Position numbers and translations under genes: made by a program. Shown here piece by piece: positions 12,738-17,360 of a DNA stretch of 21,015 nucleotides. The DNA is from a virus. The DNA is taken from the IMG/VR virus record IMGVR_UViG_3300031688_000170, positions 1 to 21,015 of that record; one strand, 5' to 3'. The notes below the pieces were generated by a model. It had not been told where the DNA came from, searched no databases, and worked only from the letters and a program-made list of their open reading frames with translations. Numbering within the stretch: position 1 is the first letter of the stretch; the number at the start of each line of letters is the position of its first letter.

Positions 12738-12764
12738 AAGAGTGGTAAACCTACTCAGTTGGTT

Positions 12765-12805
12765 AAACCTAGAGAGGCTGTGAAAAGTTTCTTTAGGTTT
12801 TTCTT
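12765..12805 (+). terminator. Rho-independent terminator
   Basis: An 11-bp stem (AAACCTAGAGA 12765-12775 with TCTTTAGGTTT 12790-12800, one wobble), 14-base loop, then TTTTT-type sequence running into 12802 (interrupted by C12803). It closes the operon ending with the SSB-like gene. Confidence 0.75.
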
Positions 12806-12812
12806 GTTTACT

Positions 12813-12844
12813 ATTGTAAATTAATAATATTAGTTGTATATTTG
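12813..12844 (+). promoter_or_regulatory. Bacteroidota-type promoter overlapped by an inverted repeat
   Basis: ATTG at 12813-12816, 20 bases, then TATATTTG at 12837-12844. It lies between two terminators, so it would start a transcript at about 12850. The -7 element and start region are covered by the palindrome at 12842-12864, consistent with control by a repressor or by RNA folding. Confidence 0.7.
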
Positions 12845-12864
12845 CTACCGTTGTGTGGTAGCAA
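12842..12864 (+). repeat. Perfect inverted repeat, operator or leader hairpin
   Basis: TTGCTACC (12842-12849), seven-base spacer, GGTAGCAA (12857-12864), a perfect 8-bp inverted repeat placed over the promoter's 3' edge and predicted start site. It can act as a DNA operator; if the RNA starts far enough upstream, it can form a leader hairpin. Confidence 0.65.
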
Positions 12865-12928
12865 CTTATATAAAACTTTATAAAGCCTATTCTTGCGAGC
12901 CTACCACCTCAAAGGAGTAGGTTTTTTT
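12850..12928 (+). ncRNA. Short leader RNA with attenuator-like alternative pairing
   Basis: A transcript from the promoter above would run about 75 bases and meet a terminator before any gene. GTGGTAG (12855-12861) is exactly complementary to CTACCAC (12901-12907), which is part of the terminator's 5' arm, so pairing of the two would disrupt the terminator. Alternatively, GTGGTAG is tied up in the 12842-12864 hairpin. This is the arrangement of a transcription attenuator controlling the HNH/initiator genes downstream; a free small RNA is the other reading. Structure is by eye only. Confidence 0.45.
12900..12928 (+). terminator. Leader terminator (attenuator)
   Basis: CCTA(C) at 12900-12904 pairs with (G)TAGG at 12917-12921, with an inner CC/GG or CTC/GAG pairing, followed by seven Ts (12922-12928). 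It is only six bases before the HNH start codon, an unusual place for a terminator unless it regulates that gene. Confidence 0.65.
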
Positions 12929-12933
12929 ACATT

Positions 12934-14787: not shown

Positions 14788-14920
14788 AGAAAAGAAGATA
14801 GTTACAGACAATAACTGGGTGCTTGTCGTAGGTGGTCAATTACCTGATATAAAGAGCCAAGAGTCTTTAGATAAGAGAGCTAAACGAAGAAAAAAATACA
14901 ATGTAAGAGATGAAGAATAA
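14780..14920 (+). CDS. Small basic hypothetical protein
   Basis: A 46-residue frame linking two genes. It starts inside the end of the upstream gene and ends inside the start of the VRR-NUC gene, so the three form a continuous translational relay. The sequence has a short hydrophobic centre (NNWVLVVGGQLPD) and a Lys/Arg-rich end (LDKRAKRRKKY). Function unknown. Confidence 0.5.
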   Translation: MNKEKKIVTDNNWVLVVGGQLPDIKSQESLDKRAKRRKKYNVRDEE

Positions 14921-15254
14921 AGAAGATGATTTACAAACCGCAGTAGTTACCTACTTAAAACTAGAATACAAAGCTTTGTTCTGTGCTTCTCTAGGTGGTC
15001 AGTATCAGAAGTATCAATCTCAGAGAATGAAAGCAAAGAGAACGGGATATGTAGCAGGGTTTCCTGACTTGTTTGTGTATGAACCCAAAGGAAAGTACAA
15101 CGGTTTAGCTATAGAGCTTAAGGTTAAAGGTAATTACGCAAGCCCTAAGCAGAAAGATTGGTTATTTTATTTAACTGAACGAGGTTATAAAGCTGAAGTT
15201 TGTACTGGATTCGACCAAGCAAAAGAATTGATAGATAATTATTTCAATCAATAA
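14910..15254 (+). CDS. VRR-NUC domain nuclease
   Basis: A 114-residue protein with the VRR-NUC core of the PD-(D/E)XK superfamily: 'DLQTAVVTYLKLEY' (entry helix with catalytic Glu/Asp context), 'SLGGQYQK', 'GYVAGFPDLFVYEP' (the conserved Gly-x-Pro-Asp-Leu) and 'NGLAIELKVK' (the E-x-K pair), ending 'SPKQKDWLFYL'. Stand-alone phage VRR-NUC proteins are structure-specific nucleases, some shown to cut Holliday-type junctions in related families. A role in resolving replication or recombination intermediates before packaging is likely. It starts inside the upstream small gene. Confidence 0.8.
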   Translation: MKNKEDDLQTAVVTYLKLEYKALFCASLGGQYQKYQSQRMKAKRTGYVAGFPDLFVYEPKGKYNGLAIELKVKGNYASPKQKDWLFYLTERGYKAEVCTGFDQAKELIDNYFNQ

Positions 15255-15262
15255 ATTAGTTT

Positions 15263-15270
15263 TATATTTG
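15263..15270 (+). promoter_or_regulatory. Promoter -7 element (TATATTTG) before a gene-free region
   Basis: A perfect TAnnTTTG element nine bases after the VRR-NUC stop. The -33 region is poor (ATTTC-type). It would start RNA near 15277, at the head of the folded region. Confidence 0.55.
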
Positions 15271-15276
15271 CAACAT

Positions 15277-15490
15277 CAAAGAGGAGTTCTGCTTGAGTGA
15301 GCTAATACTAATTGAACGGAAGAGTGTTAATTTGGGGATCAACTTAACATTAAGAGAGCAAGCCACTTGAACGCTGCACAGAAGTCCTATCGAAATCTGA
15401 AAAGGTTTAGTTTCAACACGATAGGCGAGGTTTAAATCGAGGGATTTAACAGTCAGCGTAGGTTGGGCAAGGGATTTCCCAACCTACTAT
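15277..15490 (+). ncRNA. Structured gene-free region, candidate ncRNA or long structured leader
   Basis: The 253 bases between VRR-NUC and MazG hold no credible reading frame, but they contain complementary arms that can fold into one multi-helix RNA: 15283-15291 with 15379-15387 (one G-G mismatch); 15293-15303 with 15361-15370 (bulge at A15300, two wobbles); 15323-15330 with 15344-15351; 15386-15392 with 15419-15425 (CCTATCG/CGATAGG); 15432-15438 with 15443-15449 (GAGG loop); and a perfect 10-bp stem 15458-15467 with 15478-15487. The first and fourth share two bases at their junction. A -7 element precedes it. No T-run follows, so it may continue into the MazG mRNA as a leader. No known family could be assigned by eye. 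Confidence 0.55.
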
Positions 15491-15507
15491 GAACTAAGAT
15501 TAGTAAG

Positions 15508-15813
15508 ATGGATTACATACAATTAGAAGATAAGGTAAATAAGTGGGCTGAAGATAAAGGTATCTTTGATAAGGGTACTACTTACGGACAAGCAGACAAA
15601 ACAATAGAAGAAGCTCAAGAGATAAAAGATGCTTTACTATTAAATGACAGAAGCGAACTTATAGATGCTTTAGGTGATACATTAGTTACTTTAATAATTC
15701 AGGCTAAGATGAATGATTTAGATTTATTGCAATGCTTAAACGTGGCGTACGGAGTAATTAGTAAGCGAGAAGGTGAAATGATTGGAGGAGTGTTTGTAAA
15801 GAATACTAATTAA
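15508..15813 (+). CDS. MazG-like nucleotide pyrophosphohydrolase
   Basis: A 101-residue all-alpha protein with the MazG signature: 'IEEAQEIKDAL' (Glu34, Glu35 and Glu38 as metal ligands) followed by 'SELIDALGDTLVTLI' (Glu50, Asp53 and Asp57). MazG-type enzymes hydrolyse NTPs or dNTPs to monophosphates and pyrophosphate. In phages they are thought to clean or reshape nucleotide pools and possibly affect alarmone signalling. It is downstream of the structured region, which may serve as its leader. The length is typical for a single-domain member. Confidence 0.85.
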   Translation: MDYIQLEDKVNKWAEDKGIFDKGTTYGQADKTIEEAQEIKDALLLNDRSELIDALGDTLVTLIIQAKMNDLDLLQCLNVAYGVISKREGEMIGGVFVKNTN

Positions 15814-16550: not shown

Positions 16551-16594
16551 CTATATATTTAGAGAAAATAAAAAGCATAGTTGGCAATGAGTAG
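16547..16594 (+). pseudogene. Displaced original 3' end of the pyrophosphohydrolase gene
   Basis: Read in frame, these bases give LAIYLEKIKSIVGNE and then TAG. The first eight residues are identical to those at the end of the upstream gene, where LAIYLEKIK is followed by a different ending. The DNA differs at third positions (TTG/TTA, CTA/TTA, GAA/GAG, ATT/ATA), so this is a diverged homologous copy, not a recent exact duplication. It has no start codon and is now a remnant, with a promoter's -33 lying inside it. Confidence 0.75.
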
Positions 16595-16613
16595 CACAAT
16601 TATTGTATATTAG
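16581..16613 (+). promoter_or_regulatory. Probable promoter (TTG-N22-TATATTAG)
   Basis: TTG at 16581-16583, 22 bases, then TATATTAG at 16606-16613 (one difference from TAnnTTTG). It faces a short hairpin-terminator unit rather than a gene. Confidence 0.5.
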
Positions 16614-16617
16614 CAGT

Positions 16618-16682
16618 AAGAATTTCCACTTCTTAGTTGTTTTGATGGGGGTGAAGGTCATAGCTTCACTCCCTTTTTTTAT
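16618..16682 (+). ncRNA. Candidate about 60-nt small RNA or attenuated leader
   Basis: From the promoter above, RNA would begin near 16619 and end at the terminator at about 16680 without crossing a start codon. TAAGAA (16617-16622) and TTCTTA (16630-16635) can form a first hairpin, and the terminator is the second. This is the second promoter-hairpin-terminator unit in the window, after 12837-12928. It could be a small RNA, or a leader that limits expression of the sigma factor operon. Confidence 0.4.
16647..16681 (+). terminator. Strong rho-independent terminator
   Basis: A 10-bp stem (GGGGGTGAAG 16647-16656 with CTTCACTCCC 16664-16673, one G-U), seven-base loop, then seven Ts from 16674. 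Confidence 0.9.
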
Positions 16683-16705
16683 AACTAAGATTAAAAACAA
16701 CTACT

Positions 16706-16870
16706 ATGAGAGGATTAATCAATCACACAATATTAAAAGGAGTTAAGAAGGGTGCTAAAGCTCACGTAATAAGAAGATACCTTTCTATATACTACAGAAT
16801 TAAAATAGGACACAGAGCGTTCATTACAAGGTATGGAACAATTAAAAAACGTTATAGCAGCACGTTATAG
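16706..16870 (+). CDS. Small very basic hypothetical protein
   Basis: A 54-residue frame between the terminator and the sigma factor gene, overlapping the latter's start by 38 bases. The product has a high Lys/Arg/His content and several aromatic residues (RRYLSIYYRIKIGHRAFITRY), suggesting nucleic-acid or acidic-surface binding. The start context (AACTACTATG) resembles other starts here. Plausible as a small phage effector; not recognised. Confidence 0.45.
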   Translation: MRGLINHTILKGVKKGAKAHVIRRYLSIYYRIKIGHRAFITRYGTIKKRYSSTL

Positions 16871-17360
16871 CGAAGTAAGTAATATAGCTCTTAAAGTAAC
16901 TAAGGGTAATAGGGAAGATGCACAAGACCTCACACAAGAGGTTTATCTTATAATGCTCGAATATGACCAAAGCAAACTACTTCAAATAGTGAGCAATGGT
17001 CATTTATTGTTTTGGGTAACAAGGGTAATGATGAACCAGTACCAATCTTCTAAGGCTTCATCTTTCAAGAAGAAACACAAACCTTTGCCAATAGATGAGA
17101 ATGCAATCATAAGCACTCTAAGAGCTGAGAACATTAACGAAGTAATAGAAGAAGATTTAGAATACTATCGTAAGCTAGACTTAATCAACAGGTCAATGGA
17201 GGATTTACACTTCTACGATAAGACTCTATTTAAAGTCTACTACGAATCAGACCATACTATCAGAAGTTTAGCACAAGCTACAGGTATAAGTACGACATCT
17301 ATCTTCCTAACTATTAAGAAAGTTCGAAACTATATCAAAGATGAAGTTAAAAACAAGTAG
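16833..17360 (+). CDS. Phage sigma-70-family (ECF-like) RNA polymerase sigma factor
   Basis: A 175-residue protein with the two-domain ECF layout. Region 2 includes 'GNREDAQDLTQEVYLIMLE' (about residues 25-43), the core-binding helix, and is followed by 'HLLFWVTRVMMNQYQSSKAS'. Region 4 is 'HTIRSLAQATGISTTSIFLTIKKVRNYIK' near the C-terminus, a helix-turn-helix for the -35-type element. Such proteins redirect host RNA polymerase to phage promoters. The shared motif at 693 and 2933 before virion genes is a possible target. It overlaps the zinc-ribbon gene by 20 bases. Confidence 0.75.
   Translation: MEQLKNVIAARYSEVSNIALKVTKGNREDAQDLTQEVYLIMLEYDQSKLLQIVSNGHLLFWVTRVMMNQYQSSKASSFKKKHKPLPIDENAIISTLRAENINEVIEEDLEYYRKLDLINRSMEDLHFYDKTLFKVYYESDHTIRSLAQATGISTTSIFLTIKKVRNYIKDEVKNK

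Follow-up and report, generated by a model that had tools for sequence, protein, structure and literature searches.

A modular structured RNA with repeated mini-pseudoknots in uncultured viruses of Bacteroidota-type hosts

The gene-free gap between the VRR-NUC and MazG genes

We analysed a stretch of 21,015 nucleotides (nt; hereafter the window) that makes up positions 1 to 21,015 of the IMG/VR record IMGVR_UViG_3300031688_000170, a 21-kb virus record whose terminase is 51-56% identical to those of Flavobacterium phage 11b and Cellulophaga phage phi10:1. Between the end of its VRR-NUC gene (14910-15254) and the start of its MazG gene (15508-15813) there is no open reading frame (ORF) of 40 or more amino acids, and this gap holds a structured RNA locus (15277-15507), in which one complete unit (15352-15487) is preceded by a divergent one (15279-15349). 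An earlier note on this DNA had described the gap as gene-free and as carrying strong complementary arms, and these are indeed present: a 10-bp stem (15458-15467 with 15478-15487), a 7-bp stem (15386-15392 with 15419-15425) and additional arms at 15325-15349 and 15432-15449. The element that it had seen upstream (TATATTTG, 15263-15270) and the missing T-run after the last stem were found as described. The feature is nevertheless larger than the note had suggested, and the single nested fold that it proposed gave way to a row of independent hairpins and a pseudoknot unseen by its author. The expectation that the region should fold better than shuffled sequence held in part, with the terminal hairpin standing out on its own, whereas the whole region on the plus strand reached only z = -1.98 (equalled by 9 of 200 shuffles) and the minus strand folded slightly better (z = -3.16). 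Folding energy alone is weak evidence here; the decisive evidence is the covariation of base pairs in homologues, which the same note had asked for and which was found, including G-U wobbles on the plus strand.

Covariation and the pseudoknot

Comparison of the homologous units revealed a common order of parts: A[C/A]G-WGA, a bulged 5-bp stem enclosing the loop YRCKNGARY, an A, a linker, and then hairpins. The start of the module is an H-type pseudoknot of about 27 nt, which is followed by a GNCC...GGC hairpin (P2), an optional hairpin (P3), the sequence ARUCAGYG and a terminal hairpin whose loop is of the GGGA type. Across 56 distinct modules 94.6% of the cells of the 5-bp stem were paired, and the covariation of this stem was 0.564, compared with 0.171 +/- 0.023 when shuffled and at most 0.13 with the partner slid. 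When the module stem and P2 were taken together in 20 full units aligned with MAFFT the covariation was 0.429 (vs 0.188 +/- 0.019), the inner hairpin of P2 being weaker (73% paired, zero double changes). The covariance model R2, built on the module and P2, gave 107 matches in the loci, and among 103 units placed on it changes on both sides were seen in 10 of the 13 pairs, a count to be read with caution, since the model itself had guided this alignment.

The pseudoknot helix is formed by A[C/A]G, 5' of the stem, with C[G/U]U in the hairpin loop. Mutual information in the 103-unit alignment highlighted columns 2 and 16, which were C-G in 68 units and A-U in 34 with one exception, and this pair is not contained in the R2 model that made the alignment. 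It is flanked by A1-U17 and by an invariant G3-C15, and the pseudoknot pairs scored as structure gave a covariation of 0.311 (vs 0.076 +/- 0.018). A count independent of any model over 165 modules yielded very similar results, with the middle pair being C-G in 109 and A-U in 55 (164 of 165 paired, one exception). Moreover, the C-G and A-U forms are both present in five otherwise identical module backgrounds, in which the two sides switch together. The topology is that of an H-type pseudoknot, in which the hairpin loop of a module pairs with the trinucleotide 5' of that module, and the whole is a modular structured RNA of independent hairpins and a pseudoknot. Compensatory changes that include G-U pairs, together with a pseudoknot that exists on one strand, require a folded RNA.

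Other pairings were considered and dropped. A long-range pairing of the module with the linker (ACGCUG/CAGCGU), seen by eye, breaks in several relatives; one between AGUC and GRACUA, on either side of the terminal hairpin, is limited to the clade near the window; and a loop-loop pairing of GAGU with the terminal loop was inconsistent. The resemblance of UACGAGAG to the sarcin-ricin loop is accounted for by the pseudoknot pair.

Parts of the RNA in the window

All parts in the window lie on the plus strand. The upstream element, TATATTTG, fits the -7 promoter element of Bacteroidota, whose consensus is quoted as TAnnTTTG (PMC7366714). This consensus begins exactly 13 nt 5' of the first module in five arrays, so that transcription would be expected to start at the pseudoknot. 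The divergent module of unit 1 (15279-15303) has an AAG (15279-15281) that can pair with CUU (15292-15294), and a stem of AGUUC (15285-15289) with GAGCU (15299-15303), for which the counterpart in the relative L006 shows compensating changes (GGUUC/GAAUC); only its loop was matched by the model R1 (E 1.2). This unit ends in a hairpin of the terminal type (15325-15349), with arms of about 10 bp and the loop UUGGGGAUC, and this GGGGAU loop is of a type common to the terminal hairpins of the relatives.

The pseudoknot module of unit 2 (15352-15378) was detected by R1 with 34.4 bits (E 7e-8). Its pseudoknot helix (S2) joins AAG (15352-15354) to CUU (15366-15368), and its stem (S1) joins G15358, C15359 and A15361-C15363 to 15373-15377 with A15360 bulged, both helices being backed by their covariation. 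P2 follows at 15384-15426 (R2, 81 bits, E 3e-14), where G15384 pairs with C15426, U15385 is bulged, the 7-bp stem comes next and an inner AAAUC/GGUUU is weaker. The optional P3 hairpin (UUAAAUC-GAGG-GAUUUAA, 15431-15449) has its place taken in some relatives by a second GUCC...GGC hairpin. After it come the conserved ARUCAGYG linker, AGUCAGCG (15451-15458), and the terminal hairpin (15458-15487), with 10 perfect base pairs, the loop CAAGGGAUUU (GGGA[U/A] in the family) and z = -4.46.

Three other places in the window deserve mention. A second gene-free stretch (12738-12933) folds far below the energy of shuffled sequence (z -5.73; 0 of 200), carries TATATTTG at 12837-12844 and a hairpin with a T-run at its end, just 5' of an HNH endonuclease gene, and is conserved in parts in L042, L119 and L113. 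The gap between two small genes at 16551-16705 is 71-99% identical in many relatives, with a low folding z-score nearby. Finally, the PHROG comparison links 16833-17360 weakly (E 9e-5) with an RNA polymerase sigma factor, and a phage-encoded factor of this sort could act on the RNA's promoter.

Homologues and their distribution

The relatives of the VRR-NUC gene in IMG/VR were the route to the first copies of the RNA, some of which lie directly downstream of that gene and some after other small genes. The motif GAGYAAGCYACTNGARNGCT matched 85 viral stretches and the related motif ACGAGAGNNNNNHGCGTGAGT at least 120, some of these being chance matches in coding sequence. Homologues were found in more than 100 IMG/VR contigs, all of them viral. 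Once duplicates and high-GC chance matches had been removed there were 141 distinct arrays, with one module in 100, two in 38 and more in 3, and the commonest spacing of adjacent modules was 33 nt (16 of about 44 neighbouring pairs). In contigs of 26-95 kb, confident R1 matches fell at one place in 14 of 16, the exceptions being G003, with matches at both contig ends, and G016, with a match at chance level only.

Searches of known collections returned very little. No family of Rfam 15 matched the window at the gathering threshold, 15 related loci gave nothing except tRNAs, and a relaxed threshold also gave nothing except tRNAs (window region, L181 and L123). ARAGORN and Rfam found no tRNA or tmRNA in the window region, and the window itself has no tRNA. 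BLASTN searches of 50,697 phage records with five different stretches as queries produced chance matches only, a pattern scan across 84,980 genomes of bacteria and archaea produced one match, in the actinobacterium Rhodococcus, which we judged to be chance, and R1 had no match in the isolates with related terminases (11b, phi10:1, Versailles, BS-TP3 and P12002L). No published description of such an RNA was found among the open-access papers searched. The family appears to be new, while the broad kind to which it belongs, structured phage non-coding RNAs (ncRNAs) of unknown function, is already known. Its carriers are many uncultured viruses of marine and freshwater Bacteroidota-type hosts, in which each longer contig has the motif at essentially a single place. 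That it has apparently escaped description probably reflects its absence from the isolates of the searched collections.

Neighbouring genes, tRNAs and additional modules

The RNA has no fixed partner gene. The first ORFs downstream (119) fall into 48 clusters, which include Mom, a GIY-YIG endonuclease, a photoproduct lyase-like protein, a DnaA C-terminal domain, DUF3127 and many unknowns; toxin models had no match in the ten representatives of these ORFs tested. RNAs 80-94% identical to that of the window precede a different gene in L002 and L113 and a Mom gene in L003. In the sister L002 the RNA is 93.8% identical and is present without unit 1 and without MazG, in L003 a Mom-family gene replaces MazG, and the flanks of the window remain 87-97% identical to those of both. 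This comparison indicates that RNA modules and the adjoining gene are gained and lost independently. In L049 a leader, ACUAAAACAAGACUAAGAUG, stands almost unchanged before several successive downstream genes and is possibly a translation start context independent of the Shine-Dalgarno sequence in these phages.

In some arrays tRNAs adjoin the modules or sit between them (L115, L135, L136, L163, L181, L192, L193, L202 and L203). A tRNA subfamily (L135, L136, L181, L192, L193, L202, L203 and L206) has the order promoter, extra 5' modules, UAACAAGUCGGUUA hairpin, tRNA, module, P2, P3, terminal hairpin and gene. The tRNA-like genes of L135 (3663-3738), L192, L193, L202 and L203 were assigned by ARAGORN a four-base anticodon (agtc) in an 8-nt anticodon loop, which makes them candidates for frameshift-type, decoy or degenerate tRNAs. 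In L049 and L111 the stretch that separates P2 from the following module holds a tRNA-like sequence with a 7-bp acceptor (CAAGGAU/AUCCUUG), a T-arm and about 110 extra bases in the middle; ARAGORN gives no call for it, and it is possibly an interrupted or oversized tRNA. Another recurring module, which in L135, L136, L181, L123, L131 and L144 lies upstream of the tRNA or module, is a small conserved hairpin (UAAC-AAGUCG-GUUA) with AUCCU after it. The gene-free motif GUGAUUA...GGUUAAAC...AUAAUCUC...GUAAGACUUCG...AACCUGAGAGCCU, conserved 5' of the arrays in L059, L064, L123, L127, L139, L171 and L179, is probably a further RNA module.

Possible roles of the RNA

Among the identities offered in the earlier note, that of a phage ncRNA is supported by the covarying homologues, by the adjoining Bacteroidota-type promoter and by the presence of essentially one locus per longer contig, and its opinion that the RNA is neither a tRNA nor a tmRNA agrees with ARAGORN and Rfam. 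Our best reading, to which we give about an even chance, is that of a stand-alone and probably trans-acting structured phage RNA, perhaps a protein-binding scaffold or decoy in loose analogy to GOLLD and ROOL or to pseudo-ToxI. Transcription would begin at the promoter just 5', and the mini-pseudoknot at the start of each unit would lock the opening nucleotides of the RNA into a knot. Behind it come between one and three interchangeable hairpins and, last, the strong hairpin with its conserved GGGA-type loop; a knotted 5' end and a 3' hairpin would make for a stable RNA. Its action would most likely be in trans, because it lies at essentially one place per longer contig, beside ever-changing genes and sometimes with tRNAs in the array. 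Repeated conserved loops suggest a scaffold or decoy, at best guess for an RNA-binding protein or ribonuclease of host or phage, which would recognise the repeated pseudoknot and the GGGA loop. A bolder version, which we consider rather doubtful, is that the repeated mini-pseudoknots assemble into a multivalent particle, of RNA and protein or of RNA only, that disarms a host RNA-based defence or reprograms host RNA metabolism, with tRNAs as optional modules.

Homology, fold, pseudoknot, modularity, near-single copy and the lack of a fixed partner gene are shown by the comparison, whereas transcription, stability, action in trans and a binding partner are inferred. Several observations weigh against a stand-alone trans-acting RNA. 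Just 11 of the 141 arrays have TAnnTTTG in the 60 nt before their first module (against 4.2% of random windows), and 53 of the 141 begin no more than about 15 nt after the stop codon of a gene upstream, so that many copies may lie inside longer mRNAs; nor is there a U-run terminator between the RNA and the next gene. The main rival, less probable yet deserving serious attention, is a general cis-acting leader with which a long phage transcript would begin, serving any gene as an mRNA stabiliser or in processive antitermination in the manner of the HK022 put RNA. Such a leader fits the position of the array, always on the coding strand and directly 5' of a gene without a terminator, the diversity of the downstream genes, with which a general cis effect is compatible, and the 13-nt promoter spacing. 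However, it needs neither embedded tRNAs nor long multi-module arrays, and it sits poorly with essentially one place per contig and with a module set that differs between near-identical phages. A leader specific to MazG, as the earlier note had proposed of a riboswitch, is suggested by position in this one genome and is refuted as a general explanation: L002 and L003 hold the RNA without MazG, the RNA of relatives precedes genes of 48 clusters, and the MazG relatives L029-L036 have no motif.

An anti-defence decoy, in which tandem pseudoknots of about 33 nt imitate a ToxI-like antitoxin of type III, or some comparable regulatory RNA of the host, and neutralise a host ribonuclease toxin, is a sub-case of the scaffold or decoy rather than an additional explanation, and in this specific form we regard it as unlikely. 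It would account for the H-type topology and the 33-nt tandem spacing, given that type III antitoxins are tandem H-type pseudoknots of 34-36 nt (PMC5086642) and that phage phiTE evades ToxIN with pseudo-ToxI repeats, a phage version free of the toxin gene (PMC3475682), just as no toxin gene was found among the ten adjoining ORFs tested; but most arrays have a single module, P2, P3 and the terminal hairpin are conserved without a ToxI counterpart, and there are no Rfam matches. That the sequence is kept as a recombination anchor, an exchange site for cassettes such as MazG, Mom and the GIY-YIG endonuclease, seems very improbable, even though MazG is present, absent or replaced by Mom directly 3' of the RNA between well-conserved flanks, because a DNA anchor would conserve sequence and not the pairing that the compensatory changes and the pseudoknot preserve. 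Very unlikely, too, is a self-cleaving ribozyme that has escaped recognition or the ribozyme or intron remnant of the earlier note, for which we obtained no positive evidence: the small pseudoknot, the conserved unpaired GA dinucleotides and the variable outer parts recall small ribozymes, but no Rfam ribozyme or intron model matched the window or its relatives, no conserved exon sequence flanks the RNA, and modules recur in tandem.

Whichever role applies, an RNA family widespread in abundant uncultured aquatic Bacteroidota phages has apparently been unrecorded until now, and its strong covariation, defined pseudoknot and part-swapping between phages make structure and function directly testable. 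Should it prove to be a scaffold or decoy, phages would have a new RNA-based weapon; if it acts in cis, it would represent an unknown layer of control in a phylum with non-textbook promoters and RNA chaperones.

Comparison with known phage RNAs

The stable RNAs C and D of phage T4 are small, have no known function and lie next to phage tRNAs, and they resemble the present family by description alone, with no sequence kinship claimed. The put RNA of HK022, a phage leader of two simple conserved hairpins with varied genes downstream, works in cis where early transcripts begin. Compared likewise by description, it shares the conserved hairpins upstream of varied genes, and differs in its cis action and in having two simple hairpins where the window family has pseudoknot modules.

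ToxI and the pseudo-ToxI of phiTE offer a structural likeness in their tandem H-type pseudoknots of about 33-36 nt. In the window family the pseudoknot is present and 33-nt tandem repeats occur in a minority of arrays, the window itself having one complete and one divergent module, while the usual arrangement is one or two modules and then conserved hairpins. A terminator and a downstream toxin gene, both part of the ToxI arrangement, were absent here (no U-run; ten ORFs tested from the 48 clusters), as was any sequence or Rfam match.

By life style (phages, tRNA islands and embedded tRNAs), the closest known kind is that of GOLLD and ROOL, structured phage ncRNAs of unknown function that are often near tRNA islands and sometimes contain tRNAs (PMC12286853); in GOLLD the 3' part is universally conserved and the 5' part less so (PMC12286853). 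As judged by Rfam the window family is not a member of either, their models giving no gathering-score match in the window or the 15 related loci and none at the relaxed threshold in the window region, L181 and L123. A further criterion for GOLLD and ROOL is a homo-oligomeric RNA cage. Like them, it is phage-borne and has tRNAs beside or inside some arrays; it is set apart by units of about 100-180 nt, by repeated mini-pseudoknots with exchangeable hairpins and by its residence in Bacteroidota-type phages.
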